A stretch of 64,000 nucleotides of DNA from Anaerosacchariphilus polymeriproducens (GTDB lineage Bacteria > Bacillota > Clostridia > Lachnospirales > Lachnospiraceae), in NCBI RefSeq assembly GCF_003363435.1, contig NZ_QRCT01000049.1, positions 124,001 through 188,000 of the forward strand. Direction: 5' to 3'. The notes below the pieces were generated by a model. That model worked only from the letters and a program-made list of their open reading frames with translations. It was not told the DNA's origin and searched no databases. Of this stretch, positions 15,045 to 35,050 are shown piece after piece. Position numbers and translations under genes: made by a program. Position 1 is the first letter of the stretch. Each line of letters opens with the position of its first letter.

Positions 15045-15046
15045 AA

Positions 15047-16244: not shown

Positions 16245-16259
16245 ATCTCCCTTGCCTGC

Positions 16260-16637: not shown

Positions 16638-16639
16638 CC

Positions 16640-17002: not shown

Positions 17003-17028
17003 AATCTTATCTCCTCTGTCTTCTTATA

Positions 17029-18180: not shown

Positions 18181-18184
18181 TTTA

Positions 18185-19165: not shown

Positions 19166-19215
19166 CGGAATATTCCCCTCCTTTCTTCAAACCCATAGTG
19201 CTTCTAATATCTGCC

Positions 19216-19728
19216 TTACTGATAAACCACATCTCTGAAAACTACCTGAATAATAAAATCAGAATCAAACATTTCTTGTATTCTGGTTAACAACTCGTCT
19301 TGAATTGCCTGTGTACTGCTTTTGATTTCGTCAATTGTATAAGAAGATACTACACGATTGACTTCATTTTTTATTAAGCTCTCTTTTTCACTAAGTGATG
19401 CACCGTATTTTTCATAATCTTTGCTTTCTGTATTCATTGATAATGACACTGACAATTTAGCATAATGTTCCGCATCGTCATTTCCCGGTTTTAAATTGAT
19501 CGTCATACTATCTTCAATATTGTATACTGAGATTTTATCAATTGGAACGCTCTTGTCTTTTGACTTCTCACCTGCACTCAACTCTAGATCAATCGCGGCT
19601 GCTATTTTCCCAACCAGTGCATCTGTCTTCTTTACTTCTGAAATAACACTAAATGTCAATATAGCAGTTAGAATTAAATTAGCTAACACTAAAGCCAATA
19701 CCAACACAGTCAATAAATTTTTTTTCAT
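19216..19728 (-). CDS. fliL: Flagellar basal body-associated protein FliL
   Basis: A 170-residue bitopic protein with one N-terminal membrane helix (about 5-28) and a periplasm-side/extracytoplasmic domain. The C-terminal part (EMFDSDFIIQVVFRDVVYQ) has the FliL pattern. FliL surrounds the stator units and supports torque under load. It lies 19 bases after motB and 50 bases before fliM. Confidence 0.9.
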   Translation of the reverse strand: MKKNLLTVLVLALVLANLILTAILTFSVISEVKKTDALVGKIAAAIDLELSAGEKSKDKSVPIDKISVYNIEDSMTINLKPGNDDAEHYAKLSVSLSMNTESKDYEKYGASLSEKESLIKNEVNRVVSSYTIDEIKSSTQAIQDELLTRIQEMFDSDFIIQVVFRDVVYQ

Positions 19729-19747
19729 TTTATTTCATTCCTTCCAT

Positions 19748-20554
19748 TTAGTAATCGCTAAACGAATTATAAATTTTAATCTCGACTCTTCTGTTTTGAG
19801 CTCTGCCTTCTACCGTTGTATTATCAGCAATTGGAGCATATTCCCCACGACCTGAGTATTTAAGCTTTACCGGATCTATACTATTATGATTACGGAAATA
19901 TTCTGCTACTGCCAATGCCCTTTGACAAGATAAGTCTTCATTATTCTTAAACGCTCCACCATGTATCGGAACATTATCTGTATGACCTTCTATTTCAATA
20001 ATATTCTCATTATAGTATTCTAATATAGTGCCAATCTTATCAACTAATGGATAAGAATTTTCAACGATATCTGCACTTCCTGATTCGAATAGTAATGCGC
20101 CATTTAACGTAAGCAAAGCATATTGAGATGTAAAATCTATTTGGACTTTATCTAAGACTTCATTTTCCTGAGCCATTTTTTCAATATTTTCTGCCATTTT
20201 TTCTGATTCTTTTAATGCTTCTGATTGATATTCTTCTTTAAAATCCTTTGGCATGGAAGAATCTTCTGAATCGATAGGTTCCAGCATTTTGCTGTATTCT
20301 TCTTCAAACATTGCCAACTGACTGACTCCTGCTGAAATAAGTGTTCCTTCTCCTACACCTGTGCCGCCTTCGGATAAAATACTAAAACTACTATTTAAAG
20401 ATGCGATCATATTTTCAAATTTTTCAGCATCTACGGAAGACATTGAAAACAATAATACAAAAAAACATAAGAGAAGATTCATCAAATCTCCAAATGTGGT
20501 CATCCATGCCGGTGCCCCTTTTGGACCTGTTTCCTCTTTCCTCTTTTTTGCCAT
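19748..20554 (-). CDS. motB: Flagellar stator protein MotB
   Basis: A 268-residue protein with one membrane helix (about 17-40) holding the ion-binding Asp23 in TTFGDLMNLL. A linker and plug region follow, then an OmpA-type peptidoglycan-binding domain (EIEGHTDNVPIHG, CQRALAVAEYF). It anchors MotA units to the wall. I cannot decide from sequence alone whether it uses protons or sodium. The ATG overlaps the motA stop by one base, indicating coupled synthesis. Confidence 0.95.
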   Translation of the reverse strand: MAKKRKEETGPKGAPAWMTTFGDLMNLLLCFFVLLFSMSSVDAEKFENMIASLNSSFSILSEGGTGVGEGTLISAGVSQLAMFEEEYSKMLEPIDSEDSSMPKDFKEEYQSEALKESEKMAENIEKMAQENEVLDKVQIDFTSQYALLTLNGALLFESGSADIVENSYPLVDKIGTILEYYNENIIEIEGHTDNVPIHGGAFKNNEDLSCQRALAVAEYFRNHNSIDPVKLKYSGRGEYAPIADNTTVEGRAQNRRVEIKIYNSFSDY

Positions 20555-21363
20555 TATTCCTCACCTTCTCTTTCATTCACTTTTGTTCGTTGTGAAGGTG
20601 CTAAGAAAGACTTCAATTTTTCTTCAATGACTCTTGGATTTTCACCTGCCTGAATAGATAATAAACCTTCTACCGTCACTTCTTTTAACATGATTTCAGT
20701 TGCACTATTCGCTTTCAGTTTTGCAGATACCGGACCGCACAACCAGTTTGCTATCAACGAACCATAAAGAGTCGTCAACAAAGCTACTGACATAGAAGGA
20801 CCGATTGTTGAAGGATCATCTAAACCTTTCAACATATTAATTAGTCCGATTAGAGTTCCAATCATACCCCAGGCTGGACCCATTTCTGATAATTTATTCC
20901 AGAAATCAAGTACTTTTCCATGCCTTTCGCTGACACAGACCAATTCTGTTTCCATAATCCCTCTTACCAACTCAGGGTCTGTCCCATCAACCACCAGCAT
21001 AATTCCTTTTTTTAAAAATTCATCTTCCAGATTCGTAGCTGCTTCTTCTAATGCCAGCAAACCTTCTTTTCTGGCAATCGTTGACAATTCTATTACATTA
21101 GAAATGGTTTCATTGGCATCTCCCTTCACCCCTTGAAACGCAAGTTTAATTGATTTTAAACCATTTAAAAAATTGGGTAAAGTACTTGAACTCAATGTAC
21201 TTGTCAATGAACCTCCAATTGTAATAATAACTGATGGGATATCAATAAAACTGAATAACTTTGAAAACTCCACTCCGGTATTTTTATCAAAAACAATACC
21301 GAATACTATCATTACAACACCTAAAATAATGCCTAACAAGGAAGCTATATCCACAATTGCCAC
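20554..21363 (-). CDS. motA: Flagellar stator protein MotA
   Basis: A 269-residue protein with four membrane segments and the characteristic large cytoplasmic loop between helices 2 and 3. The conserved proline-glycine rich stretch GPAWGMIGTLIGLINML is visible near residue 155. With MotB it forms the ion-driven stator. The predicted start is GTG at 21363, with AAGGGACGG just upstream. It follows flbD by 74 bases and is in the same transcript. The neighbouring PilZ gene product may act on this protein. Confidence 0.94.
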   Translation of the reverse strand: MAIVDIASLLGIILGVVMIVFGIVFDKNTGVEFSKLFSFIDIPSVIITIGGSLTSTLSSSTLPNFLNGLKSIKLAFQGVKGDANETISNVIELSTIARKEGLLALEEAATNLEDEFLKKGIMLVVDGTDPELVRGIMETELVCVSERHGKVLDFWNKLSEMGPAWGMIGTLIGLINMLKGLDDPSTIGPSMSVALLTTLYGSLIANWLCGPVSAKLKANSATEIMLKEVTVEGLLSIQAGENPRVIEEKLKSFLAPSQRTKVNEREGEE

Positions 21364-21437
21364 CCGTCCCTTCGTCTTTTTTTCTCTTTATTGTATATAA
21401 TCATTCTGTCTATTTTTTCATATTCTGTCTATTTTTT

Positions 21438-21635
21438 TTAATTTTTGTCGAAGTTTGTAAAAATACTTCGTTTATATGATATTACTAAATTTTTTATCTC
21501 TTGTCTACTTTCTTTTACTATTAATTTCTTTCCAGTTGTGAAAGAAATTACCGTATCGGGAGTTTCTTCTATTATTTCTATCAGTTCAGCATTGATTAAT
21601 ATTTTTATTCCATTTAGCTTCGTTACATCTATCAT
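21438..21635 (-). CDS. flbD: FlbD family flagellar protein (SwrD)
   Basis: A 65-residue protein beginning MIDVTKLNG, the family hallmark, with IEIIEETPDTVISFTTGKKLIVKES after it. In Bacillus the homologue SwrD (YlzI) boosts flagellar power and lies between flgE and fliL. I use the ATG at 21635 because AAGGAG lies nine bases upstream; an in-frame extension of 18 residues runs across a promoter and is unlikely to be translated. It is the first gene of the second flagellar transcript. Confidence 0.93.
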   Translation of the reverse strand: MIDVTKLNGIKILINAELIEIIEETPDTVISFTTGKKLIVKESRQEIKNLVISYKRSIFTNFDKN

Positions 21636-21657
21636 ATATACGCACTCCTTCTTTGGT

Positions 21658-21686
21658 ATTATACCACATATTGCGTCACAGTGAAA
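21658..21686 (-). promoter_or_regulatory. Sigma-A-like promoter of flbD-motA-... unit
   Basis: Read on the minus strand: -35 TTTCAC (21681-21686), 17-base spacer, perfect -10 TATAAT (21658-21663). The predicted start is near 21651, about 16 bases before the flbD ATG. The -35 matches only four of six consensus bases, but the -10 and spacing are ideal. Together with the hairpin behind flgE it suggests that a second unit starts here. Confidence 0.65.
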
Positions 21687-21716
21687 CATTATTCTACAAT
21701 ATCTATGAATTTGACT

Positions 21717-21766
21717 GAAAAAGGGAGATAAGACAAATGCTCCTCTTCTGCACCGATCCTATCCCC
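21717..21766 (-). terminator. Terminator-like hairpin after flgE
   Basis: On the minus strand a stem of about 10 pairs with one bulge (21723-21733 with 21757-21766, including G-U pairs) encloses a 23-base loop and is followed directly by TTTTT. It lies 17 bases past the flgE stop and upstream of the flbD promoter. The large loop makes efficiency uncertain. Confidence 0.5.
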
Positions 21767-21782
21767 TATTTTCCCTTACTGA

Positions 21783-23930
21783 CTAACGTTTTAGGTTAAT
21801 TAATTCTTCTAGCATCGAATCTGAAGTTGTTATAATTCTGGAATTCGCTTGAAAACCTCTTTGTGTTGTTATCATTTCAGTAAACTCCGCAGAAAGATCT
21901 ACATTAGACATCTCTAAAACTCCGCTTGACATGCTTCCTCCATCTGCTGTAACATCTTGTCCGATTCCGTCAAATTCTCCGGAGTTCAATGTTGCTGAGT
22001 ACAAGTTCTCTCCTTCTTTCAAGAGACCTGAAGCATTGGCAAAGGAAGCGGTAGCTATCTGTCCCAAAAGTTTTGTATTTCCATTATCGTAAGTTCCATA
22101 AATCATTCCGTTGTTCTGAATAGATACCCCTGTCATCTGTCCAAGCTTTTTCCCTGCTCCGACACCATCTGCATCGCCGGTCTCCATTACTAAAGTTGAA
22201 CTTCCATTATTATCTACCATTGTGGTTCCTTTAAAATCCATATTAATATCTTTAAAGTTCCCATAACCGGCAGCAAAATCTAAATTCACATCATCTTCAC
22301 CATTTACTGAAACAAAAGCACCAGTACTAGTGTTAAACTGTACAATATAATCTTTTGTCTTCGTTGTTGTAGATAAAGTAATAGATCCATCCGCATTTTG
22401 TGTAAAAGTATTTTTTACGGCATCTGTATCTGCAGGTATCCCATAAGCCTCTGCTGCTGTTACAATCGTACCACCCTGTTCAAACTGTCCTTGTGCAGAG
22501 TCATAGTAATATCCTGTATTTAAATCACTGTTTCCTAACGTAGTTGTATGAGTTGCAACATATCCGGAACCAGTTGAATAACTCCATGCAATATCCGGAT
22601 TGGTTTCTGCTGCCTGTAATGCAGTTACGACTTCTGCATTTGTCATTTCCCATGTAAGCCCTGTTACAGGATCACCATCAGCCAAGGCAGATGTACCTGT
22701 AATACCGCAGCTGGTCAGAATTGAAACCGGTACCGTTGTTGTTCCGTCTGTTACAGTAGCATCACTTCCATCTCCGACCGTACCATAATCATAGGTCCAG
22801 GCTACAGCATCGTTCAAATTATAAGCACCCATTGATTTTGTAAATAACATTGAAGAAATTTCAGCTTTTGTCAGACCTTGTGTCATTTTTCCAGTACCAG
22901 AATCATAGGTCGCTCCGATCAATGTAGCAACATCTGTAAAACCTGTTGTTCCCGAATAAGATTTCGTTCCCACGAAATTATAAGATGTATTATCAACCAC
23001 CTGAGGTGCATTATATGTAAAGCCTGATTCTAAAGTTCCTGTCTGGAAAATACTCTGATAATTGGTCATTACACTTCCTGTTGCTGAATAGTAGTTGCCA
23101 TTGGCATATGCATAACCTTCTACTAAATTAGTCAAATTCTTTGTAGTTGAGGTAGTCGTAGTTCTATCGGTTCCAAAATTTACAATTTTATCTAATGTAA
23201 CTCCATATTTTTTCGTAATAGAATCTCCGTTACTATCTACAATATCATTAAGTGCAATCGCATATTTTCCATCGGCCGCAGTTGATTTTATAGAAAATTT
23301 AGCAGTATAACTATATCCTAATTGATCATAAAAAGTTAAGCTTCGAATCAATCCCGTTTCACTTGTTACTTGAGTACTATTTTTGTCAATAATTCCTGAA
23401 ATTTTTGAATTTGTTGTTGCCTCAGGATCTGAAGTCAGATTCTCCACTGCCAGAATCCTTAATGGAGACACGGTATCTTGTGCTATTTTTCCTTCTCCAT
23501 CAACCTGCCATCCCATTATATTGTATCCGGTTGAAGACATACATAAGTTTCCTGCACCATCAACGTAAAATGATCCGTCTCTTGTAAAATAATTTTCTGA
23601 ACCATTACTTACAACAAAAAAGCTATCTCCTGTTATTTTCAAGTCAAATGGGTTTCCTGTGGTCTGCGTTGCACCTGCTGTTGTAATGTTAACTGTAGTT
23701 GCTCCTGTTGTAACTCCAAGACCAATCTGTTTTGCATTCGTACCACCGGTTCCTGTCAGTGCATTCGCTCCTGATGCTGATTTTGTAGTTTGATATAATA
23801 TTTCACTAAAAGTGGTACTACTAGATTTAAAAGCTACTGTATTTACGTTCGCAATATTATTACCTATAACGTCCATCTTGGTCTGGTGTGTTTTTAATCC
23901 TGATACACCAGAATATAATGATCTCATCAT
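21783..23930 (-). CDS. flgE: Flagellar hook protein FlgE (long form)
   Basis: A 715-residue hook protein. The N-terminal D0 region (MRSLYSGVSGLKTHQTKMDVIGNNIANVNTVAFK, quoted in part: GNNIANVNTVAFK) and the C-terminal D0 region (SNVDLSAEFTEMITTQRGF) are canonical. Between them lies a very long Thr/Gly/Ala/Asp-rich, cysteine-poor section; family members range from about 260 residues in Bacillus to about 400 in enterics, so some 300 residues are extra surface domains. The hook is a universal joint, and inserted domains face outward. AGGAGGATATTTTGTT precedes the ATG. The 92-base leader folds into hairpins (separate entry). Confidence 0.94.
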   Translation of the reverse strand: MMRSLYSGVSGLKTHQTKMDVIGNNIANVNTVAFKSSSTTFSEILYQTTKSASGANALTGTGGTNAKQIGLGVTTGATTVNITTAGATQTTGNPFDLKITGDSFFVVSNGSENYFTRDGSFYVDGAGNLCMSSTGYNIMGWQVDGEGKIAQDTVSPLRILAVENLTSDPEATTNSKISGIIDKNSTQVTSETGLIRSLTFYDQLGYSYTAKFSIKSTAADGKYAIALNDIVDSNGDSITKKYGVTLDKIVNFGTDRTTTTSTTKNLTNLVEGYAYANGNYYSATGSVMTNYQSIFQTGTLESGFTYNAPQVVDNTSYNFVGTKSYSGTTGFTDVATLIGATYDSGTGKMTQGLTKAEISSMLFTKSMGAYNLNDAVAWTYDYGTVGDGSDATVTDGTTTVPVSILTSCGITGTSALADGDPVTGLTWEMTNAEVVTALQAAETNPDIAWSYSTGSGYVATHTTTLGNSDLNTGYYYDSAQGQFEQGGTIVTAAEAYGIPADTDAVKNTFTQNADGSITLSTTTKTKDYIVQFNTSTGAFVSVNGEDDVNLDFAAGYGNFKDINMDFKGTTMVDNNGSSTLVMETGDADGVGAGKKLGQMTGVSIQNNGMIYGTYDNGNTKLLGQIATASFANASGLLKEGENLYSATLNSGEFDGIGQDVTADGGSMSSGVLEMSNVDLSAEFTEMITTQRGFQANSRIITTSDSMLEELINLKR

Positions 23931-23955
23931 AACAAAATATCCTCCTAAATTGTAT

Positions 23956-24027
23956 CGTCTTACTATATTGACGCAGCCTTATCTATCGGTCAAAGGCTGT
24001 TTAGCTTCCTTAAAAGGTCCGGCTAAA
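23956..24027 (-). ncRNA. Structured leader of flgE: three consecutive hairpins
   Basis: Between the stop of the upstream gene and flgE the minus-strand RNA can form three adjacent stems: TTTAGC/GCTAAA (24022-24027 with 24000-24005, with an inner CCTT/AAGG), CAGCCTT/AAGGCTG (23993-23999 with 23974-23980) and a weak CGTC/GACG (23970-23973 with 23956-23959). No U-tract follows, so these are not terminators. They could be RNA-stability, processing or protein-binding elements. I cannot match them to a known riboswitch class. Confidence 0.4.
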
Positions 24028-24421
24028 TAATTACTGCACCATCAATATTTGTAAAAACATTTTCATTTGCTTCTGTTTGGTCCATTGCTGTGACTACCGT
24101 TTGATTTTTTATATTTACAATAAATACCAAGTCATCAACTAGTACTAATGATTCTTTTATCCCTTTCTCTTCTGCTTTCAACGTCCCTTCTTCCAATCGT
24201 GTCTTTTGACCCTGTGATAAATTTATGTTCCTATCTGAAAGTCTGTTCAAGGCATGTTTCGAAAACTTTAATTCTCTGGACTCATTCGTCTTTTGTTGTT
24301 CTTGTAAAATTTCTTCAAAAGAGAAGTTGGAATCTGCACTTGCTGTAGATTGATGATTATTTTTTAAGTATCGGCCGGTAACCTGTTCAATGGATGTAAA
24401 TTGATTTTGAATTGAATTCAT
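24023..24421 (-). CDS. Flagellar operon protein (TIGR02530 family)
   Basis: A 132-residue protein of the small family found between flgD and flgE in Firmicutes. Its core KFSKHALNRLSDRNINLS (about residues 74-91) is the family hallmark, followed by a compact alpha/beta C-terminus ending in a DLVFIVNIKNQTVVTAMD beta stretch. The molecular role is unknown. I choose the ATG at 24421 because GGGGG lies seven bases upstream; the ATG two codons earlier abuts the ribosome site. The stop codon is part of the first flgE-leader hairpin. Confidence 0.88.
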   Translation of the reverse strand: MNSIQNQFTSIEQVTGRYLKNNHQSTASADSNFSFEEILQEQQKTNESRELKFSKHALNRLSDRNINLSQGQKTRLEEGTLKAEEKGIKESLVLVDDLVFIVNIKNQTVVTAMDQTEANENVFTNIDGAVII

Positions 24422-24455
24422 ATCCATTCCCCCTTGGGTTACTGTCCCTTATTCA

Positions 24456-25109
24456 TTATTTATCTGCTTCAGACTCGTATAATTTAATTTTTGCTTCCAG
24501 ATTCTGCATTTTTGTAATCGCATCAGAACTTACAAATTTTTTCGCATAAGTAGATAATGCTTCATATGCCTTCCTTGCTGCCACTACAGCTTCTTTATCA
24601 TCCAATGTAACTGTCTGCTCGCTCGGAAGATTCGTTACCTGATTTTTAAAATTTGTAGCTGCTTCAGTAGCATCTAAGTATTCATCCGATACTACCGTAT
24701 CTAAATCATCAATGGAATATAATTGTTCATTAATTGATAAAAACGCTTTTCCGTTTTCAATCACAACATAATCTACTTTTCCACTTATATAACTTGTTTC
24801 ACCGGTAGTAGAAGATGTAACCTTCATAATTACATTTTCTCCTGTCAAACTAGTTGCTTTTTCCTGACTCTGTGATGCCTGTAGATTCTGCATTGCTTCT
24901 AATTCTGAGAATGTGGCCAATTGAGCTATGTACTCCGTATTGGCTGTTGGCTCCATCGGATCTTGATACTTCATTTGTGCAACTAATAATTGCAAAAATG
25001 CGTCTTTATCAAGTTCTGAATTACTTTTTTTCGTAGATGTGGATGAAGTGTTTGAAGAAGCTGTGGTATCTTGAACTATGCCATCCTTAATCGGTGCAAT
25101 AATAGCCAT
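24456..25109 (-). CDS. flgD: Flagellar hook assembly scaffold FlgD
   Basis: A 217-residue hook-cap protein. The N-terminal DKDAFLQLLVAQMKYQDPMEPTAN signature (quoted in part: FLQLLVAQMKYQDPMEP) identifies it. The following beta region is short, and the C-terminal 70 residues are helical (EAVVAARKAYEALSTYAKKFV), unlike the usual FlgD Ig-like domain; they resemble extracellular repeat-type helical modules. FlgD caps the growing hook and is exported. It follows fliK and precedes the TIGR02530 gene, as usual. Confidence 0.93.
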   Translation of the reverse strand: MAIIAPIKDGIVQDTTASSNTSSTSTKKSNSELDKDAFLQLLVAQMKYQDPMEPTANTEYIAQLATFSELEAMQNLQASQSQEKATSLTGENVIMKVTSSTTGETSYISGKVDYVVIENGKAFLSINEQLYSIDDLDTVVSDEYLDATEAATNFKNQVTNLPSEQTVTLDDKEAVVAARKAYEALSTYAKKFVSSDAITKMQNLEAKIKLYESEADK

Positions 25110-25153
25110 AAATTTCTTCCTTTCTTTTTCTTATATTCGTATCATCATTCTTT

Positions 25154-26626
25154 TTAAGCTGAATAATCAACTGAATTACCATTCTGTAACATCATTTTGA
25201 CTGCAAGATTTTCATCTTCTGACATAATCCCTTGAATAGCTTCCAAGTCTGAAACATTTAAATTCCTGCGTCTATTACCTGAATTTTGCCTTTCACTTTC
25301 CTTTTGATTATTCTGTTGATTCTCTTCTAAATTTCTTTCAAACTCGTGACTTGCAATCGTTACTTCAATCGCTTCCACCTTTAGGCCCTGATTGTTAAGA
25401 TTATCTCTTAATTGAACAATCTGATTTTCTAAGGCATTTTTAACAGCTTCATTTTCTGCTGCCATATGCGCAGTAACAATTCCATTTTTCGTAGTCACCA
25501 TCAAATGAATCTTACCAAGATTTTCAGGATTCAATTGTAATTCCATACTGGTGGCTTCCCGAGACATACTTACTCTGACTGATTCCGTGATTTGTCTCAT
25601 AATATTTTCTACATTTACACGCGTCTGAAAATTCTCTGCTGTCTGTGGTACTGCACCTACCGTATTTGTTCTAGCATCTAATACAGGATTGCCGTTTTGT
25701 GCATTAGAAAATAAGTGATTTTCTTTATTCTGAGAATCTGTATTATCATCCGAAAAATCAGTTTCTATTTCTTCCGTTTCTAAATTCATAGACTCATCTG
25801 CCAAAATTTTAGCATTTGTTTCTTCGTCTATTTCCTGCTCTTCTACATTCACTATTTCTTTAGGCAGATTTTCTAAAGCTTTCTCTACACTATTTCCGTC
25901 TGCTGCCTGAGTTTCTTGTGACTGCTGTAATACTAAATCCGCTTCCTCTTGCTTTTGAATTTCAGACTGAATTACAACTTCTTGTCCAATCAATTCATCA
26001 TCCGGATTCATCTGAACCGAAGTATCAAGCTGCATATTTTCAAGTAATTGCTGTACTTCGTTCCTATTCATGCCCAAATCCTTTAAGAGGGAAACCGTTA
26101 GTTCTTCAACCGTCTGGAATAACTGTTGAAATTCTTCGTTCATAAGCAGTGTGACTGGCTCTGTATTACCTGCCAGCTGAGTAACCAATGTCGTAAGATT
26201 TTCCGGCTGCATGAAATCGCTAAATTGGAATCCTAATGCTTGCATTGCTGCTTCTAATTCTGACTCGGAAACATTTAAACTTTCTAAAATGCTCTCTTTC
26301 ATTTTCTTTTCAAAATCTTCTAGTTTTTCTTTCAACATTCCTGATGTCTCTGAGAATTCCTTTGCATCTTCCTGAACAGATTCCTTTTGTGGTAATTTAT
26401 CCTGAATACTTGAATAACTCTCCTTTTTTACACTACCAACCTTTAAATTGCTCTGACTATCTTCTACAAAATCCGTTTGTGTCTGTGCTTCAACCTGACC
26501 ACTTGAAGCAATTTGATTGATGAAGGATTCAAAATCCAATTGAGAGGATTCTTTCTTTCCTGCACTTACGCCTTTTGGTGAACCTAAAATTGCCGAGTTC
26601 ATTTTTACCATCGTTGTACCTGTCAT
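25154..26626 (-). CDS. fliK: Flagellar hook-length control protein FliK
   Basis: A 490-residue Gln/Glu/Asn-rich protein with a disordered N-terminal ruler region and a folded C-terminal domain (about 350-440) showing the FliK core SMELQLNPENLGKIHLMV. The ruler senses hook length and triggers the FlhB specificity switch. The long form here is compatible with the large hook subunit, but ruler and hook length relate to assembled length rather than monomer size. AAAGGAGGAGTTTT precedes the ATG. Confidence 0.92.
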   Translation of the reverse strand: MTGTTMVKMNSAILGSPKGVSAGKKESSQLDFESFINQIASSGQVEAQTQTDFVEDSQSNLKVGSVKKESYSSIQDKLPQKESVQEDAKEFSETSGMLKEKLEDFEKKMKESILESLNVSESELEAAMQALGFQFSDFMQPENLTTLVTQLAGNTEPVTLLMNEEFQQLFQTVEELTVSLLKDLGMNRNEVQQLLENMQLDTSVQMNPDDELIGQEVVIQSEIQKQEEADLVLQQSQETQAADGNSVEKALENLPKEIVNVEEQEIDEETNAKILADESMNLETEEIETDFSDDNTDSQNKENHLFSNAQNGNPVLDARTNTVGAVPQTAENFQTRVNVENIMRQITESVRVSMSREATSMELQLNPENLGKIHLMVTTKNGIVTAHMAAENEAVKNALENQIVQLRDNLNNQGLKVEAIEVTIASHEFERNLEENQQNNQKESERQNSGNRRRNLNVSDLEAIQGIMSEDENLAVKMMLQNGNSVDYSA

Positions 26627-26651
26627 AAAACTCCTCCTTTCTTTTTTTTAT

Positions 26652-27524
26652 TTATTCTTCAGGTGCCATGATTTTTGTTAGTTTAACTGCGAAATCAGGA
26701 TCCATTGCACCAAGAATATCACCTCTTGATTCTTTGTCCATTACTTCCAGTATCTGTGCTGCAAGTTTCAAGTCATCTGTTAATTTTTCTAATATAGCCG
26801 CTGCCTGTTTTGGTTTCATTGCGGAGTAAGTCGTTGCATAATCTTGGACTTTTTGATTATAAGCTTCCTGTTTCACTACTTCTTTATACAAAAGTTCTGC
26901 ATTAGTAGGATCAATACTCTCATAATATTTTTGATACTCTTTCATTGCCGGAGCATTCTCTCCAAATACAACTTCTTCATAAAATTCAGTTTTTAATTTC
27001 TGAAATTCGACCTGTTTTTTCTCAAACTCTTTCAATCGTTCTATCTCTGTCTGCAGATCTTGGATATTTGAATCGCCTGTTTCACTTTTCTCTTTCTCAT
27101 CCTGAAGTTCCACTTGGAGTTTTTTTATCTGCTCAATAGCTTCTTCTACCGTTTTATAAGGATAATCCGGATTAACTTTCTTTTTATCACTTTTCGAACT
27201 GGATTCTGGCAATATCTTATTTATATATGGAACATCTTCCAAAATCGGTGATAATACCCCTGAACCAAATCCTCCTATATCCGCTTTTACTAACAATACC
27301 AAAATGATAAGCCAAGTAATGACTAATCCGGCAACTGCCAAGACCACTGCAAATCTGCTTCCTTCTTTTTCTTCTAACGAATCAGAGTCCTCAATAATTT
27401 TATCGGCATTTTTCTTCTGTTTCTTTAATTTTTTTTCTTCCTTTTTCTTGTCTTTTTGTTCTTTTTTCAGTTCTTTTTTTGACTTTTCCGTTTTTTCCTC
27501 TAATTCTTCAAAATTATCTTCCAT
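26652..27524 (-). CDS. ylxF: MotE/YlxF-like membrane protein with MgtE-N-like domain
   Basis: A 290-residue protein. A very Lys/Glu-rich cytoplasmic N-terminus (about 1-55) precedes one membrane helix (about 58-80). A coiled coil (about 125-180) follows, and the C-terminal domain (about 215-290) holds AAAILEKLTDDLKLAAQILEVMD, typical of the MgtE-N/MotE fold. YlxF occupies this place between fliJ and fliK in Bacillus; MotE homologues act as chaperones for the stator in Gram-negatives. I start at the ATG at 27524 rather than the GTG three codons earlier. Confidence 0.85.
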   Translation of the reverse strand: MEDNFEELEEKTEKSKKELKKEQKDKKKEEKKLKKQKKNADKIIEDSDSLEEKEGSRFAVVLAVAGLVITWLIILVLLVKADIGGFGSGVLSPILEDVPYINKILPESSSKSDKKKVNPDYPYKTVEEAIEQIKKLQVELQDEKEKSETGDSNIQDLQTEIERLKEFEKKQVEFQKLKTEFYEEVVFGENAPAMKEYQKYYESIDPTNAELLYKEVVKQEAYNQKVQDYATTYSAMKPKQAAAILEKLTDDLKLAAQILEVMDKESRGDILGAMDPDFAVKLTKIMAPEE

Positions 27525-27543
27525 GTCTTTCACCCACTATCTT

Positions 27544-27987
27544 TTATTTATTATTTCCATAGATGTAACTCACCAGTTCATCGATTTCCTTACTTTCCTG
27601 AACATTAACTTCTTGTTTAAAATCTTCAAACGCTTTTTCTTTCAATTTTTCATAAGTTTTTCTTTCCAACATGACTTCACCCAGCTTAACTCTGGCCATT
27701 TCTAAATTCTTCTGAGCTACATGAACAGAAATCATCTGATTTTTAATGGAACCTTTTATTCCTTCAATAGATTTTCTACAATTTTTAATTTCCAAAAGAT
27801 TAATGGCAGACATTAAAAGATTCTTGTGAATTCCTTCAAACTCCTGTTGTTTTAATTTTAACTCTGCTAATTTTTTCTCTTCTTGCACCAGTCTCTGACT
27901 TGCCTCTGCATAATCGGATTTTGCCTGCATTTCAAGTTTTCTTTTGATCTCTAATATATTTTGCATTCGATAAATAAACTTTGCCAT
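27544..27987 (-). CDS. fliJ: Flagellar export chaperone FliJ
   Basis: A 147-residue, almost entirely coiled-coil protein starting MAKFIYRMQNILEIKRKLE, typical for FliJ. It inserts in the FliI hexamer like the gamma stalk of an ATP synthase and helps export. Strong GAGGAGGAGCC site before ATG. It follows fliI by 15 bases. Confidence 0.9.
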   Translation of the reverse strand: MAKFIYRMQNILEIKRKLEMQAKSDYAEASQRLVQEEKKLAELKLKQQEFEGIHKNLLMSAINLLEIKNCRKSIEGIKGSIKNQMISVHVAQKNLEMARVKLGEVMLERKTYEKLKEKAFEDFKQEVNVQESKEIDELVSYIYGNNK

Positions 27988-28002
27988 GGCTCCTCCTCTA
28001 TA

Positions 28003-29313
28003 TTATTCACCAAACATTTTTTCTAACTGCCCTATAATTTCATCAAATTCAAATTTTTCATGAGTTCCCTGCATTAAAAACTCATTGACTTCATCAATTT
28101 TACTTACTGCATAATCTATATTTTTATTGGCTCCTTTTTTATAGGCTCCTATATTGATCAAATCCTCAGCTTCGCTGTACGTAGCTAAAACATTTTTAAG
28201 TTTTCCCGCCACCTTTTTATGCGAATCTGTTACAATGGAATTCATAACACGAGATATACTTTGCAATACATCAATTGCAGGGTAATGGTTTTTATGAACT
28301 AACTTTCTTGAAAGCATAATATGTCCATCTAATATACTTCTTGCTGTATCTGTAATTGGTTCATTAAAATCATCTCCATCTACAAGCACAGTGTACAGAC
28401 CTGTAATGGAACCTTCCTCTGAATTACCTGCCCGTTCTAACAGCTTAGGCATTTCTGCATACACACTTGGGGGGTATCCCCTTGTAACCGGTGGCTCTCC
28501 TGACGCAAGTCCTATTTCCCTTTGAGCCATTGAAAAACGAGTCAATGAATCCATCATCAACAATACATCTTTCCCCTGATCACGAAAATATTCTGCAATC
28601 GCCGTAGCTGTTTTGGCCGCCTTATTACGAATTAGTGCAGGCTTGTCCGAAGTTGCTATCACCAGAATCGAGCGTTTCATTCCTTCTTCACCCAAATCTC
28701 TTTCAACAAACTCGCGAACTTCTCTTCCTCGTTCACCTATTAATGCAATTACATTTACATCTGCCTTCGTATTTCTTGCAAACATACCTAATAAGGTACT
28801 CTTTCCAACACCACTTCCGGCAAAAATACCAATACGCTGACCTTTCCCTACTGTAATCAATCCATCTACGGCTTTTACACCTAAAGGCAAGACTTTCTCA
28901 ATAATCTCACGTTCCATTGGATTTGGCGGGTCTGCCTCAACCGGATACATTTTTGTCAATGGAATAGAGCTAATATCCGTCGGCCGCCCCAAGCCATCCA
29001 GGGTATGACCAAGCAGATCATCGCCTACATAGACAGACAATGGATGTTCCGTATTTTCCACGATACATCCAAGTCCTATTCCTTCAACATTTTCATAAGG
29101 CATGAGCAAAATCCTTTTGTCACGCATTCCAACTACTTCTGCTAAAACATATTTATTTTCTTCTTCATCCACAATAATACGACAAAGATCATTTAACTTT
29201 GCATCCGGTCCAACTGATTCTATTGTTAGTCCTACAATCTTTACTACTTTGCCTAACTTTTTAAAATATGACTGTTGGGATAATTTACTATATTTATCAA
29301 GATTTATTGTCAT
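28003..29313 (-). CDS. fliI: Flagellum-specific export ATPase FliI
   Basis: A 436-residue F1-beta-like ATPase. The Walker A GIFAGSGVGKSTLLG (about 160-174), catalytic GERGREVREF and Walker B DVLLMMDSLTRFS are intact. It energises loading of substrates on the export gate together with FliH and FliJ. AAAGGAAATATGCTTC precedes ATG. A 64-base gap separates it from fliH; I see no promoter there. Confidence 0.97.
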   Translation of the reverse strand: MTINLDKYSKLSQQSYFKKLGKVVKIVGLTIESVGPDAKLNDLCRIIVDEEENKYVLAEVVGMRDKRILLMPYENVEGIGLGCIVENTEHPLSVYVGDDLLGHTLDGLGRPTDISSIPLTKMYPVEADPPNPMEREIIEKVLPLGVKAVDGLITVGKGQRIGIFAGSGVGKSTLLGMFARNTKADVNVIALIGERGREVREFVERDLGEEGMKRSILVIATSDKPALIRNKAAKTATAIAEYFRDQGKDVLLMMDSLTRFSMAQREIGLASGEPPVTRGYPPSVYAEMPKLLERAGNSEEGSITGLYTVLVDGDDFNEPITDTARSILDGHIMLSRKLVHKNHYPAIDVLQSISRVMNSIVTDSHKKVAGKLKNVLATYSEAEDLINIGAYKKGANKNIDYAVSKIDEVNEFLMQGTHEKFEFDEIIGQLEKMFGE

Positions 29314-29377
29314 GAAGCATATTTCCTTTTCATCTCATAAATTTTAATGAGTTATTAGTTATTTTCGAAAAAAATTT

Positions 29378-30181
29378 TTAAATACTTAGAGATTTTAAAT
29401 CTTTCAATAAACGTTCCATCTGAATGTCTAAGCTGCAGTCAAAGACTCCTGAATCAGTCTCTATCACACACTGATTCTTCTTAAGAAGCATATCTTCAAT
29501 CACTTCGACCCTGACTGTCTTACCTACTCTTGCTTCCAGTTCGTCCTGCCGTTCTTTTACGAATGTATAATTTTCTTTTGGAACTCTTACGAGAAACTCT
29601 CTACTGTTCTCTATCTTATCCATTGCATTTTTCGCCAGATGAAGTACCATGCTCTTTTTATCATCGAACTGAACATGAAATACTCTTTCAAATACATCAG
29701 CCAATACATCTACCAAAACGGGTTCCAGCTCATTCACTTTTCTTTTATAATCTCTTTCTAATTCTTTTTCCTTCTCTTCTAACTCTTCCTTCATTTTCTG
29801 AATGTTATCTTCTGCTCGACGACATCCTTCTTCATACCCCTTATTTTCTCCTTCTACCCTCGCATTCTCTAATATTAATTGTGCCTGTGCACTTGCCTCT
29901 TCAAGCATACTCGCAGCCTGTTCTTTTGCCTGTGCGACAATTTCTTCATATGCTGTCTGACGATTCCGTTCCGCCTCTTTTTCTTTTTCCGATTCAACCA
30001 CTTCTACACTTTCAGCGAACAGCCCTCCAATAAATTCAGAGTCACCTTCCTCCCCCAGCTGTTCCGCCCTTTGTGATACAAGCAGTTCCTTGATTCTTTC
30101 AGCAACTTTATCATTTGAATCTATGACTCTTTTTTTCTCTTCTAATTGCTTAACATTATGATATTTTAACAAATTAGACAA
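29378..30181 (-). CDS. fliH: Flagellar assembly protein FliH
   Basis: A protein of about 267 residues with a long charged coiled coil (about 50-165) and a C-terminal V1/F-type peripheral-stalk domain (about 170-267). It binds FliI and links it to the C-ring. The best start is a TTG at 30181: GGAGGTGA lies eight bases upstream and the product begins MSNLLKYHNV, typical of FliH; the longer frame from 30214 would use codons inside fliG. It overlaps the fliG end by eight bases, so translation is coupled. Confidence 0.9.
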   Translation of the reverse strand: MSNLLKYHNVKQLEEKKRVIDSNDKVAERIKELLVSQRAEQLGEEGDSEFIGGLFAESVEVVESEKEKEAERNRQTAYEEIVAQAKEQAASMLEEASAQAQLILENARVEGENKGYEEGCRRAEDNIQKMKEELEEKEKELERDYKRKVNELEPVLVDVLADVFERVFHVQFDDKKSMVLHLAKNAMDKIENSREFLVRVPKENYTFVKERQDELEARVGKTVRVEVIEDMLLKKNQCVIETDSGVFDCSLDIQMERLLKDLKSLSI

Positions 30182-31181
30182 TAATCTCGTCACCTCCACC
30201 ACGTGAGATAACAATTTCTGAAGAATCTTCTAACTTTCTAATAACACCAACAATTTTCTGTTGCGCTTCCTCTACGTCCTTCATACGTACCGGCCCCATA
30301 TATTCCATATCTTCTTTAATCATTGCTGCCAGACGTTTAGACAGATTATTGAAAATTGTATTTTGTACTTCTTGATTCGCTCCCTTTAATGCAATACTTA
30401 AATCATTATTATCTACATCACGCAATACTCTTTGAATTGCTCTGTCATCCAATAATAGAATATCTTCAAATACAAACATTCTCTTACGGATTTCATCTGC
30501 AAGTTCCGGATCATCAATTTCAAGATTTTCCATAATATGTTTTTCTGTACCACGATCTACTGAATTCAAAATATCAACAATAGCTTCTACGCCACCGATA
30601 ATTGTATAATCTTGATTTACTAAAGAAGACAACTTTTTATCTAAAATACGCTCTACTTCTTTAATAACATCTGGAGAAGTTCCATCCATTACCGCAATAC
30701 GTTTTGCTACATCAGCCTGCTTATCAATAGGCAGCGCACCAACGATCTGAGCTGCCTGTTGAGCTGGCAGATATGATAAAATTAATGCAATTGTTTGTGG
30801 ATGTTCGTCTTGAATAAAATTCAGCAATTGAGCCGGATCTGTTTTTCGTATAAATTCGAAAGGTCTTACCTGTAAGGAAGCTGTCAGCCTGGAAATAACA
30901 TCCATGGCCTTGTCTGAGCCAAGAGCCTTTTCAAGCAATTCTTTTGCATAACCAATACCACCTTCGGCAATATATTGCTGTGCTAAACATATCTGATAAA
31001 ATTCATTCAATATGTCTTCTTTTATACTAGGTGTAACACTTCTGGTGTTTGCAATTTCTAATGTCAATTCTTCTATTTCTTCATCTTTTAAATGTTTAAA
31101 AATATTAGATGCTTTTTCTGGACCTAATGCAATTAATAATATTGCCGCTTTTTGTAAACCTCCTATTTTATGTTCAGCCAT
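30174..31181 (-). CDS. fliG: Flagellar motor switch protein FliG
   Basis: A 335-residue C-ring protein. N-terminal KAAILLIALGPEKA, the middle EHPQTIALILSYLP motif and the C-terminal torque helix with FEDILLLDDRAIQRVLRDV are all present. It contacts FliF on one side and MotA on the other. I use the ATG at 31181 (MAEHKIGG), two bases after the fliF stop, with GAGGAG inside fliF; a GTG four codons earlier lies on that site. Confidence 0.96.
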   Translation of the reverse strand: MAEHKIGGLQKAAILLIALGPEKASNIFKHLKDEEIEELTLEIANTRSVTPSIKEDILNEFYQICLAQQYIAEGGIGYAKELLEKALGSDKAMDVISRLTASLQVRPFEFIRKTDPAQLLNFIQDEHPQTIALILSYLPAQQAAQIVGALPIDKQADVAKRIAVMDGTSPDVIKEVERILDKKLSSLVNQDYTIIGGVEAIVDILNSVDRGTEKHIMENLEIDDPELADEIRKRMFVFEDILLLDDRAIQRVLRDVDNNDLSIALKGANQEVQNTIFNNLSKRLAAMIKEDMEYMGPVRMKDVEEAQQKIVGVIRKLEDSSEIVISRGGGDEIIV

Positions 31182-31183
31182 TT

Positions 31184-32788
31184 TTAATCCCACTCCTCAT
31201 TTAGCCAATTTCGAAGCAATTGTGCAACTGCCTCTGGATTTTCATCTACAAACTTCTCAATCATAATACGGACTTCTGATTTTTCATTAAATCCGATATC
31301 TTCTAACTCTTCATCCTGTGCTTCTTGTGTCGTTTCAAGTAAATTCTTAACAGAAAGTTCTGGTTCTAACACAGTTTCTTTTTCGCCTCTTGTACTCTTG
31401 AAAATGATAAATCCTAAAAATCCTAAAATCAATACACCAAGTAGAATTGGAGCATAATCCCAAATCGATTTTTTGCTTGTATCGCTTGCTTGGAAAAAAG
31501 GCACCTGATAAGCTACAATAGAAATATTATCCTCTGATATTCCTGTAGCTTTCGAAACTACCTGATAAAGTTCTTCATCTACGTCCACTTTCGTCTTTTC
31601 ACTATTTGCCGCCTGAAACTCTGCAAAAGTCTGACCTTTTAATTCACCGGATTTTTTCAACTTATCTTCATCATAAACTTTATAGGTTGCTGCAACTACA
31701 GTAATAGATGATTCATCTGCTTTAATTGTACCGGTTGCAAATTTAGTATTTGTAATTTTTTCATTTGGTAAATAATCTTTTGTATTTTCTGTCGTAGTAG
31801 AAGTAGATGTTCCATTATTTTCCATTACATATGTTGTCTCGTCATTTGCATCTGTTCCAGGAGTCGCAGCCGCTCCCCCTTGAGATTCTTGTTCGTAATT
31901 ACTTTCACTATCTAAATAACCTTGTGTATTTCCATCATTCACATAATACTGGTGATCCGTCTGTTCAATCACATCAAAATCTAAAGCGAGATTCAGACCT
32001 ATTTCAACATTGTCATAAACATTTGCCCCAAGCATAACATCTTTGACCTGATTTTTTACCATACTTTCATACTTTGTTTGAACTGCAAGCTGATTACTTA
32101 CTGAGCCTGCTGTAGAAGACTTATCTTCACCAGTAAATAAAACATTTCCATTTGAATCTAAAATCAATACATTATCCGTGTTATCATTTCCAACTGCTGT
32201 TGCTATGTATTTTGCCCAACCCTCTGCAGCTCCTTCTTTCACCTCACCATTTAATGAAACTAATACACTGGCATAGGTAGATTCCTTCTGAGATGCTAAA
32301 GTGCCATCATTCTCTGGAATTGATAACGTAACGGTTGCTTCATCAACTATATCAATTGATTTTAATTCACTGGCTACCTTCTCTTCTAAATATAACTGGT
32401 ATTTTTTGGATTTATCTGATTCTGTTGTGCTAAAATTGCCATCAAATACAGAAGACAAATCATACTCCTGAGTAGGAATGTTATTAGAACCCAACAATAA
32501 AACTGCTGCCGATTCATCTTTTTCATTAACTTGAATGACCAATCCATCTTTTGAAGCAGTATAAGCAATTCCTTCTGACTCAAGAAGTTCTGTTATCTGA
32601 GAAGCTTCTTTTGTACTCTCTAAAGTCACTAAAGTTACCATCTTAGGCTGTGAAAGCACCCAATATAATATTCCCAATGCAATTGTGACACCAACTACTA
32701 CGCTTATGATAATTATTCTTTGAACTGCTGTAAATTTATTCCACCAATTTATTATTTTTTGCTGTATACCCTTTATTCTTTCATTCAT
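31184..32788 (-). CDS. fliF: Flagellar MS-ring protein FliF
   Basis: A 534-residue protein with an N-terminal membrane helix (about 22-44), the secretin-like ring-building domains (KDGLVIQVNEKDES, then LPENDG-type stretch), an Asn/Thr/Gly-rich variable loop (about 285-340), a second membrane helix (about 437-457) and a C-terminal FliG-binding tail. It forms the base ring in the membrane. AGAGGAGTATC precedes ATG. Confidence 0.96.
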   Translation of the reverse strand: MNERIKGIQQKIINWWNKFTAVQRIIIISVVVGVTIALGILYWVLSQPKMVTLVTLESTKEASQITELLESEGIAYTASKDGLVIQVNEKDESAAVLLLGSNNIPTQEYDLSSVFDGNFSTTESDKSKKYQLYLEEKVASELKSIDIVDEATVTLSIPENDGTLASQKESTYASVLVSLNGEVKEGAAEGWAKYIATAVGNDNTDNVLILDSNGNVLFTGEDKSSTAGSVSNQLAVQTKYESMVKNQVKDVMLGANVYDNVEIGLNLALDFDVIEQTDHQYYVNDGNTQGYLDSESNYEQESQGGAAATPGTDANDETTYVMENNGTSTSTTTENTKDYLPNEKITNTKFATGTIKADESSITVVAATYKVYDEDKLKKSGELKGQTFAEFQAANSEKTKVDVDEELYQVVSKATGISEDNISIVAYQVPFFQASDTSKKSIWDYAPILLGVLILGFLGFIIFKSTRGEKETVLEPELSVKNLLETTQEAQDEELEDIGFNEKSEVRIMIEKFVDENPEAVAQLLRNWLNEEWD

Positions 32789-32847
32789 TCATGATACTCC
32801 TCTACCGTCTGTTTACGAAGACTAAAGTATTTTTATATTTCTATAAC

Positions 32848-33168
32848 TTAAATTTGAATATTCATTATTTGATTATATGCTTCTAAAAACTTATCTCTTA
32901 CCGTCACAGTATACTGTAAAGCAACATTTGCCTTTTCCTGTGCTACTGTTAAGTCATGTGTGTTCTCTGAATATCCCAAAGCATATTTAATTTCTTCCTG
33001 CTCTGCAACATTTTGCAAAGAATCCGTCTGGTTGACCATAGACATAGCTGATTTTAACACAGAATCAAAACTATCATTCTTTTCATTTCCCGATACGGTT
33101 TGACCTTGAAGAGCATCTGCTGCCTTTATATAACTTGAAGAAATATTATTAAGTGAAGAAATATCCAT
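32848..33168 (-). CDS. fliE: Flagellar hook-basal body protein FliE
   Basis: A 106-residue helical protein. The C-terminal half (NTHDLTVAQEKANVALQYTV, then VRDKFLEAYNQIMNIQI) carries the FliE signature. It joins the MS ring and the rod and is the first exported substrate. AGGAGGTAAGATTAC precedes ATG. It sits 13 bases after flgC. Confidence 0.93.
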   Translation of the reverse strand: MDISSLNNISSSYIKAADALQGQTVSGNEKNDSFDSVLKSAMSMVNQTDSLQNVAEQEEIKYALGYSENTHDLTVAQEKANVALQYTVTVRDKFLEAYNQIMNIQI

Positions 33169-33181
33169 GTAATCTTACCTC

Positions 33182-33625
33182 CTATTTTGCCATTTCAAGA
33201 CCTTTTACTGCCATCGATTTACTTGCTGAAAAAGCAGTGGCATTTGCCTCATATGAACGACTGGCATCAATTAAATCTGTCATTTCAGTTACTATATTAA
33301 CATTGGGATAAGACACATATCCATTTTCATCTGCATCTGGGTGTGAAGGATCATATTTCATCACAAAATCGTTTTCTATGTCCTCAGACACCTCAGAAAC
33401 TTTAACCCCGCTTCCTGAATAAGAACTATTAGCCTTTGCTAAAACACTACTAAATGAAGGGGTAGTACTTTTCTCCGCAAAAGAAACAATTTTCCGACGG
33501 TATGGAGTTCCATTTTCTGTTCTAGTTGTTGAAGCATTCGCAACATTCTGAGAGATAATATCTGTACGAAAGCGCTGTGCTGTCATACCCGATGAATTAA
33601 TCCCAAATGATCGAAACATTCCCAT
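33182..33625 (-). CDS. flgC: Flagellar basal-body rod protein FlgC
   Basis: A 147-residue proximal rod protein. The start MGMFRSFGINSSGMTAQRF and C-terminal SYPNVNIVTEMTDLIDASRS are diagnostic. It polymerises with FlgB in the rod. GGAGGAAATAAA precedes the ATG. Length is typical. Confidence 0.95.
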   Translation of the reverse strand: MGMFRSFGINSSGMTAQRFRTDIISQNVANASTTRTENGTPYRRKIVSFAEKSTTPSFSSVLAKANSSYSGSGVKVSEVSEDIENDFVMKYDPSHPDADENGYVSYPNVNIVTEMTDLIDASRSYEANATAFSASKSMAVKGLEMAK

Positions 33626-33651: not shown

Positions 33652-34041
33652 TTATTTTATAACCAATTTTAATCTACTGATTTCTTGTTTCATACTGTCA
33701 ACCAAACCGTTATATTTTATCTGATTAGATGCTAACTCTACATTTTCTGTGTCTATGTCTACATTATTATCATCAATACGATACGAAAACCCTGCGGAAT
33801 CTGTGTAAGTAGACACATCTAAATGTTTTAAATTTGAATTTAAAATTTTTTCATCTAAAGTAGAATATTTAGACTTCTTTAATTCAACTTCTAATGCACT
33901 TTCAAAATCTACATCCTGTCTTTTATAACCAGGTGTATCCACATTCGCAATATTATTACTAATAGCTTCATTTCTAAGCCAACTTGCATCAGCCGCTTTA
34001 TTTAATACATTTAGATAATTAAATACATTTGAATTAATCAT
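33652..34041 (-). CDS. flgB: Flagellar basal-body rod protein FlgB
   Basis: A 129-residue rod protein, first gene of the flagellar cluster. It has the rod-protein core NNIANVDTPGYKRQDVDF and ends in a helical SLVDSMKQEISRL-like segment (NGLVDSMKQEISRLK). The ATG at 34041 has AGGAGG nine bases upstream; a GTG nine bases earlier overlaps the ribosome site. The predicted transcription start lies only about 15 bases upstream, so the leader is very short. Confidence 0.95.
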   Translation of the reverse strand: MINSNVFNYLNVLNKAADASWLRNEAISNNIANVDTPGYKRQDVDFESALEVELKKSKYSTLDEKILNSNLKHLDVSTYTDSAGFSYRIDDNNVDIDTENVELASNQIKYNGLVDSMKQEISRLKLVIK

Positions 34042-34062
34042 ATGCAACACCCTCCTGACTCT

Positions 34063-34090
34063 ATTATATATAAAATTACAAAAAAGACAA
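34063..34090 (-). promoter_or_regulatory. Sigma-A-like promoter of the flagellar cluster (flgB)
   Basis: On the minus strand: -35 TTGTCT (34085-34090), 16-base spacer, perfect -10 TATAAT (34063-34068). The predicted start near 34056 abuts the flgB ribosome site. The A/T-rich upstream tract with phased repeats suggests additional control. Confidence 0.7.
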
Positions 34091-34108
34091 GCAATTTTTC
34101 GTTTTTTT

Positions 34109-34188
34109 TACACGATGTAGTACTTTTTTTCTATTTTTTTACATGATATAGTACTATTCCCTTTAATATCTACACAATATAATACACT
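34109..34188 (-). repeat. Three 16-bp repeats at exact 31-bp spacing upstream of the flgB promoter
   Basis: On the plus strand: TACACGATGTAGTACT (34109-34124), TACATGATATAGTACT (34140-34155) and TACACAATATAATACA (34171-34186). Copies 1 and 2 agree at 14 of 16 positions; copy 3 agrees at 12 of 16 with either. The 31-bp period is close to three helical turns, so all copies face the same side. Their centres lie about 60, 91 and 122 bases upstream of the predicted start. This layout fits binding sites of a transcriptional activator. The factor is unknown. Confidence 0.75.
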
Positions 34189-34211: not shown

Positions 34212-34240
34212 AAGGATTTACAAAAAAATTGTAAATCCTT
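34212..34240 (-). terminator. Rho-independent terminator of codY
   Basis: A perfect 12-pair stem (34212-34223 with 34229-34240) with a five-base loop, read on the minus strand as AAGGATTTACAA...TTGTAAATCCTT, followed by a short T-rich tail TTTCTTGTCT. It lies about 30 bases past the codY stop and separates codY from the flagellar cluster. Confidence 0.75.
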
Positions 34241-34270: not shown

Positions 34271-35050
34271 TTAGCGTTTTTGATTTTTCATTGATTCTAG
34301 TTCTTCGAAAACAACATCATTTAAAACTTTAATATATGTTCCTTTCATACCGGAAGATCTAGATTCTATTACTCCTGCACTTTCAAATTTACGAAGTGCA
34401 TTAACAATGACTGACCTGGTTATTCCTACTCTATCCGCAATCTTACTTGCAACAAGAATTCCTTCCTTGCCATCCATTTCTTCGAAAATATGTGTAATTG
34501 CTTCCAATTCTGAAAATGATAATGTACTGATGGCTGATTTTACTATCTGTACTTTTCTAGTTTCTTCTGCATTTTCCTCGTTTACAGAGCGCATCATTTC
34601 AAGTCCCACCACAGTAGTTCCATACTCACTTAAAATGATATCATCAATTTCATACTCCATATCACTTTTGTAAATAAATAATGTGCCTAATCTCTCTCCC
34701 GCAATATCGATTGGCGTAATAATCGCATGATATCTTTTCACATCATTCGATACAAATCCTAATGTTTGTAGATTTACATTTTCTTTTGTAGAAAGGACTC
34801 CCAATAACCTTTCATTCAAAATCGGATCAATGTAACCACCTACTTGATCTGCAATCAACTCCTCAATTTCATCCACTGCGTTGCTTAGACTTACACCCAA
34901 CACTTTGCCTTTTTTACTAATAACTAGAATATTTGAACTCAATATTTCAGTTAATATTTGACATATGTCATTAAATACTACTTTAGACGTATTGTTGTTG
35001 TGCAAAAGTTTGTTAATTTTTCTGGTTTTATCCAGCAATTGAACACTCAT
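34271..35050 (-). CDS. codY: GTP/branched-chain amino acid-sensing repressor CodY
   Basis: A 259-residue protein with an N-terminal GAF-type sensor domain (about 1-155) and a C-terminal winged helix-turn-helix (SKIADRVGITRSVIVNALRKF, about 203-223, is conserved CodY signature). CodY represses nutrient-stress, competence and often motility genes when GTP and isoleucine are plentiful. It has its own promoter with a CodY-box-like site and its own terminator, directly upstream of the flagellar promoter, as codY precedes flgB in Bacillus. Confidence 0.96.
   Translation of the reverse strand: MSVQLLDKTRKINKLLHNNNTSKVVFNDICQILTEILSSNILVISKKGKVLGVSLSNAVDEIEELIADQVGGYIDPILNERLLGVLSTKENVNLQTLGFVSNDVKRYHAIITPIDIAGERLGTLFIYKSDMEYEIDDIILSEYGTTVVGLEMMRSVNEENAEETRKVQIVKSAISTLSFSELEAITHIFEEMDGKEGILVASKIADRVGITRSVIVNALRKFESAGVIESRSSGMKGTYIKVLNDVVFEELESMKNQKR

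Follow-up and report, generated by a model that had tools for sequence, protein, structure and literature searches.

The three phased repeats upstream of flgB in the window (the whole 64,000-nucleotide stretch analysed here) can be understood, with moderate confidence, as a tandem NrdR-type operator of the flagellar/chemotaxis (fla/che) operon; to judge from the sequence, this is most likely a new target for a known regulator. NrdR switches off the synthesis of DNA building blocks when these are plentiful. The array itself is a real regulatory array, widespread but patchy in Lachnospiraceae. The same box, at the same pair spacing, is found at nrdD, the anaerobic ribonucleotide reductase gene, of the same genomes, often in the same places relative to the promoter, and it is this coincidence that points to NrdR, a housekeeping repressor.

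The array sits between a terminator-like hairpin behind codY and the flgB promoter. The features are, by descending coordinate:

34271..35050, minus strand: codY, the upstream gene (NF003170, 333 bits, and TIGR02787, 271 bits, both over cut-off)
34212..34240, no strand assigned: terminator-like inverted repeat 3' of codY, perfect 12-bp arms and a 5-nt loop
34170..34185, no strand assigned: third, weak copy of the box, on the minus strand GTATTATATTGTGTAG, 31 bp upstream of box 2
34139..34154, no strand assigned: NrdR-like box 2, on the minus strand GTACTATATCATGTAA, 31 bp upstream of box 1
34108..34123, no strand assigned: NrdR-like box 1, on the minus strand GTACTACATCGTGTAA, beginning 33 bp ahead of the -35 hexamer
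34085..34090, minus strand: -35 hexamer of flgB, TTGTCT
34063..34068, minus strand: -10 hexamer of flgB, TATAAT, with a 16-bp spacer to the -35
33652..34050, minus strand: flgB (TIGR01396, 96.5 bits, over cut-off)
687..33625, minus strand, as flgB: remainder of the flagellar/chemotaxis cluster (Pfam matches)
2306-3073, minus strand: FliA/WhiG-type sigma factor (TIGR02479, over cut-off)
687-2294, minus strand: FapA (Pfam match)

The likely start of flgB is the ATG at 34041, which has an AGGAGG site ahead of it. All 19 of the cluster proteins scanned have Pfam matches; these include FlgD, MotA, FliM, FliO, FliP and the FlgE, FliR and FlhA types on the flagellar side, CheA, CheB, CheC, CheD and CheW on the chemotaxis side, and also sigma-70 and FapA. 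The cluster headed by flgB presumably forms one transcript.

As 16-mers, the copies TACACGATGTAGTACT (34109-34124), TACATGATATAGTACT (34140-34155) and TACACAATATAATACA (34171-34186) follow one another with a period of exactly 31 bp, at pairwise identities of 14/16, 12/16 and 12/16. Their summed identity, 38/48, was reached by none of 5,000 dinucleotide shuffles of 34069-34212 (shuffle maximum 37; homopolymer-like 16-mers excluded). The first-pass annotation of this DNA had described three repeats at this spacing upstream of a TTGTCT-16-TATAAT promoter of flgB, and both the repeats and the promoter, on the minus strand, are confirmed; the centres it gave, at about -60, -91 and -122, hold with a start site assumed near 34056. 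It had also seen no likeness to a CodY box, and indeed the region 34050-34270 has no match to the CodY consensus, AATTTTCWGAAAATT, even when 3 mismatches are allowed; a CodY site was rejected on this basis.

In the register of an NrdR box, the three 16-mers occupy 34108-34123, 34139-34154 and 34170-34185, with spacers of 15 bp. Against the NrdR consensus, YACWATATATWGTR, box 1 matches at 11/14 positions, box 2 at 12/14 and the third copy at 11/14. Boxes 1 and 2 keep C4 and G13; in the third copy, T replaces the conserved C4. A matrix built from nrdD upstreams only assigns 7.0 bits to box 1, 6.9 bits to box 2 and 1.7 bits to the third copy (2.6 bits if the register is shifted by 2). Box 1, the best single box of the window, has by itself a p of 0.033 against shuffles; the pair formed by boxes 1 and 2 scores 13.9 bits, which 1 of 10,000 shuffles equalled, and the rest of the 64 kb holds no pair within 2 bits of it in which both boxes exceed 0.

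The comparison with relatives covered 96 flgB upstreams: the window, 15 genomes of the same family (L010-L024) and 80 public loci, mostly titled Lachnospiraceae (L040-L119). A promoter above threshold was present in 88, and 81 non-redundant regions were kept. Unsupervised palindromic EM on these 81 returned ACACAATATATTGTGT in third place, after two codY-terminator-like palindromes; it was recognised as the NrdR box, and this identification was tested afterwards. With the nrdD matrix, at p<=0.01 against shuffles, 42/81 regions have a pair at 31/32 bp and 43/81 a single box, and in 29/43 the next-best site is offset by +-31/32 bp (96 offsets examined). Both members exceed 0 bits in 32 of the 42 pairs; in the other 10 one member falls below 0, so that the score is carried by one strong box. 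The remaining 39 regions have no pair at this threshold. Elsewhere in these loci, 43 further intergenic regions contained 0 sites of at least 9 bits and 0 pairs; the corresponding numbers for the flgB regions, counting both strands, are 110 and 52. The flgB upstreams from other families of the order (14; L025-L038) reached 9.1 bits at best, with 13/14 below 8 bits.

A tree from CodY and FlgB was built for 79 of the 81 rows (a codY match was present in 78/80 relatives' loci tried); it was made quickly, its branches are long and it has open forks. On it, the patchy presence of the pair needs 17 changes, against a shuffled mean of 26.7. By tree path, the window's five closest rows are L045, L058, L010, L098 and L052, and the pair is significant in L010 only, which is also the row of highest identity to the window (78%); L098 is the single Roseburia examined. 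Conservation of the repeats and their spacing in relatives, which the first-pass annotation had put forward as the check on its reading, is thus found in part: many relatives keep both, L010 included, and the other four near rows do not. In none of the relatives does a third box in register with the pair exceed 0 bits; the three-box array is therefore, as far as seen, specific to the window. One relative, L011, has a near-perfect box, ATACAAGATATTGTGG, adjoining the flgB ribosome-binding site; it is counted as having no pair because this box lies outside the scored region. The genome of L058 (G102) encodes two NrdR proteins over the family cut-off and has no significant flgB pair.

The nrdD upstreams of the relatives were gathered by protein search, independently of the motif. 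The matrix derived from flgB regions scores at least 15 bits in 34/43 of them, and EM on the nrdD upstreams alone, the two from the window's own genome included, produced ACACAATATATTGTGT again, with a correlation of 0.958 to the flgB matrix and a site fraction that reached its upper limit (0.97). Here, too, the second-best site lies at +-31/32 bp, in 28/41 regions (nrdD matrix; 96 offsets examined). The EM excluded two loci, L243 and L260, as incomplete sequences; the regex and geometry counts excluded them on account of length. The window's own genome has box pairs at two nrdD genes (one named by NF006126, over cut-off; the fetched part of the other by TIGR02487 and others), scoring 26.7 and 29.0 bits against 13.9 bits at flgB; at one of the two genes the boxes are 30 bp apart. 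The genome also encodes one NrdR (TIGR00244, over cut-off, 197 bits). NrdR matches were found in 48/50 genomes, 47 of them over cut-off (G081 has a partial match only); the two others, G099 and G078, are metagenome assemblies, in which nrdD is still boxed. As NrdR is nearly universal, its co-occurrence with the boxes is uninformative.

Cores 31 bp apart with at most 1 mismatch gave 7 matches in the window's own genome, against 4 for the reversed pattern; they fall at five separate locations, namely flgB, an nrdD gene, xerD and two positions within ORFs. In 40 relatives, cores 32 bp apart with at most 1 mismatch gave 116 matches against 80 for the reversed pattern; of 38 pair places in relatives, selected by eye as good palindromes, 17 adjoin nrdD. 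The loose pair pattern alone is thus unspecific. Single NrdR-like boxes in the own genome show no excess (123 against 136 reversed, per strand), and single sites were therefore not used.

Where flgB boxes lie upstream, their positions keep a strong helical phase relative to the -35 (R=0.70 for a 10.5-bp period, n=41, related sequences that are not independent; the Rayleigh and binomial statistics take no account of relatedness). By the start of the downstream box relative to the -35, the 42 significant flgB pairs divide into 18 at -10, over the hexamer, 11 between -20 and -24, and 13 between -32 and -34; the window pair is of the -64/-33 kind. For nrdD (n=43; promoters predicted rather than mapped, and several partner boxes weak) the corresponding starts are -22 to -25 in 18, -33/-34 in 4 and -10 in 2, with boxes at -10/+23 in 4 and elsewhere in 15; at one of the own nrdD genes the boxes are downstream of the predicted promoter. 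Box places of the flgB type before the -35 are therefore present in 42/42 flgB pairs and 24/43 nrdD regions. The first-pass annotation had seen in the array the geometry of activator sites, and had proposed a dedicated master regulator of motility. The geometry is not diagnostic, because box, spacing and often places are common to nrdD, and the same box and spacing at nrdD of the same genomes speak for NrdR rather than a dedicated regulator. Its placing of regulator sites on one face of the DNA is supported, and the motif and a spacing of about 31 bp recur in about half of the flgB upstreams (42/81). Across box classes, the -35 of the 81 kept promoters is TTGTNT in 58 (TTGTGT in 36) and the spacer is 16 bp in 55, in a promoter scan that was itself biased toward TTGTGT. 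A TTGTNT -35 looks like an NrdR half-site, an observation subject to the same bias.

The flgB boxes depart from canonical NrdR sites in several respects. The published strict pair regex, as given in the available part of PMC12051234, is failed by the window and passed by 7/81 flgB and 19/41 nrdD regions (shuffled flgB regions: mean 0.49, maximum 3, in 100 rounds); among the three window copies, the published single-box regex is passed by box 2 only. The strict regex is a search heuristic; failing it is the reason why the array is not filed as a proven NrdR site. In the flgB boxes the distal half is canonical and the promoter-proximal half relaxed: T11 is present in 20/38 flgB boxes versus 39/40 nrdD boxes (Fisher p = 2e-6, clades uncorrected). 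C4 together with G13 is found in 38/38 upstream flgB boxes, a count that is partly circular as the boxes were selected by motif. Together with the window's low scores and the patchy presence, these departures fit a tuned, weaker NrdR site, but they also fit a protein of overlapping specificity, or decay.

A second perspective, which we hold possible though unlikely, supposes another transcription factor, perhaps an activator of motility, whose specificity overlaps that of NrdR and which contacts RNA polymerase from upstream. The relaxed half-site, the few passes of the strict regex and the phased places upstream of a non-consensus -35, like those of a class-I activator, would be expected of such a protein; however, a matrix made without flgB data finds the flgB sites and their 31/32-bp partners, the C and G are retained in every upstream box (with the circularity just mentioned), and the geometry overlaps with that at nrdD. 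When the asymmetric flgB-type box was searched for in one strict form, 13/40 genomes gave 14 matches, against 3 for the reversed control; flgB accounts for 3 of the 14, two conserved positions within ORFs for 5, and singletons for 6. Such a distribution contains no second conserved target, and a separate regulon for the asymmetric box was not seen in this one narrow search of 40 genomes. NrdR might instead bind and activate flgB, which we consider quite improbable. The phased boxes before the non-consensus -35 again agree with activation, as do two reports, seen in excerpt: topA of Pseudomonas aeruginosa is activated by NrdR (PMC4409342), and in E. coli nrdR mutants the expression of motility genes is lower, with fewer motility and chemotaxis transcripts in the deletion (PMC4898720). 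Against this, the geometry is partly that of nrdD promoters of the same family, the downstream box covers the -35 in 18/42 pairs, topA has one box and a mechanism called questionable, and NrdR is described as the universal repressor of reductase genes (the last two points from the accessible portion of PMC12051234).

Two further readings dispense with a bound regulator. The first-pass annotation had cautioned that A-tracts between the copies could cause plain curvature of the DNA, with no specific protein; we give this very little credence. Between copies one and two the sequence (TTTTTTTCTATTTTT) is indeed rich in T, but that between copies two and three is of mixed composition (TATTCCCTTTAATAT) and no A-tract, and relatives keep a palindrome with fixed C and G that was found de novo at nrdD too. 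Decay of a former operator, no longer bound in the window's species, is likewise highly doubtful: weak boxes, the loss of C4 from the third copy and the want of a pair in 4/5 nearest tree rows are what decay would leave, whereas boxes 1 and 2 retain C4 and G13 at a distance of 31 bp, and the window still has three copies that resemble one another.

Taking the repeats, then, as an NrdR operator, we infer from the sequence that NrdR binds here, represses, and takes dATP as its signal; control of fla/che would probably be that of a dATP-dependent repressor. Given binding, repression is fairly probable; it is preferred because the geometry is partly shared with nrdD, the kind of gene that NrdR represses. 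By the published mechanism, NrdR carrying dATP and ATP assembles as a tetramer that holds a pair of palindromic boxes, spaced by roughly three turns of the helix, and bends the DNA sharply. At flgB the tetramer would sit on the boxes centred near -60 and -91, immediately ahead of the -35, and would keep RNA polymerase off the promoter; the weaker copy at -122 would be an auxiliary site. When dATP falls, during active DNA synthesis, NrdR would release and the operon would be transcribed, supplying basal body, export gate, motor, chemotaxis proteins and the FliA-type sigma factor. We lean, a little less firmly than for the operator itself, to the broader proposal that in many Lachnospiraceae fla/che belongs directly to the NrdR regulon, so that a dATP/ATP sensor gates flagella, and that in the window's species the operator has grown to three boxes. 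If so, swimming would be tied to nucleotide pools and the supply of DNA precursors, and motility would follow the DNA-synthesis state; the reach of NrdR would extend past reductase genes, at a site with two boxes, and there would be a direct mechanism to compare with the unexplained link between NrdR and motility in E. coli.

The tandem NrdR operators of ribonucleotide reductase promoters were reportedly described by Rodionov and Gelfand in 2005. As far as the available sections of PMC9110341 and PMC12051234 go, these operators are 16-bp palindromes with conserved C and G, have spacers of 15-16 bp (31-32 bp centre to centre) that amount to integer helix turns, and often lie over or near the polymerase site; the flgB boxes resemble them in this, with the C and G kept in boxes 1 and 2 of the window and T4 in its third copy. 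NrdR needs two boxes, and binds best at spacers of 15-17 bp and integer helix turns (PMC12051234, same sections). The window differs in its target, a flagellar operon, in the weakness of its boxes, in the degenerate promoter-proximal half and in the third copy. Effects of NrdR on motility in E. coli are said to have been reported by Dreux in 2015. In the excerpt available, NrdR is likewise linked to motility and chemotaxis genes in E. coli, by a mechanism called unknown (PMC4898720); here, box pairs are found at the flagellar promoter itself.

The neighbourhood has a parallel in Bacillus subtilis, where the fla/che promoter lies behind codY and has sites for SwrA and DegU. The window shares the codY-flgB neighbourhood and the upstream regulatory repeats, but its motif fits NrdR boxes; SwrA activation of fla/che was rejected, as the window's genome has no SwrA (PF17423, 0/1; B. 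subtilis as positive control). For motility in Lachnospiraceae, CodY, CsrA and sigma factors are discussed in the part of PMC3720852 available; the literature searched, partly in excerpt and with most subscription journals lying outside it, yielded no account of a flagellar promoter with NrdR boxes.

Several other pairs came to light. In the window's own genome, the intergenic stretch ahead of xerD (TIGR02225, over cut-off) carries two NrdR-like boxes 31 bp apart, at G000:C2:14135-14182 (L127:1636-1682). In one relative a tandem NrdR-like pair (G074:C19:83878-83921) lies immediately upstream of nrdR (83408-83845, minus strand), an arrangement that suggests autoregulation. The pair pattern overlaps a parS-like sequence, TGTTTCACGTGAAACA, in five genomes (L174, L175 and L176, from G089, G087 and G065; G067:C36:328-371; G068:C22:44866-44909, with one base different in G068), with a ParA-type gene nearby in the three fetched loci; this is perhaps chance overlap, or an NrdR site near the origin. 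Tandem NrdR-like pairs also adjoin a gene of the formate/nitrite transporter family in two genomes (L183, by profile, and L184), and, again in two genomes (L199 and L202), stand at the start of a DUF1015-like gene, so named by eye, with no NCBIfam match.
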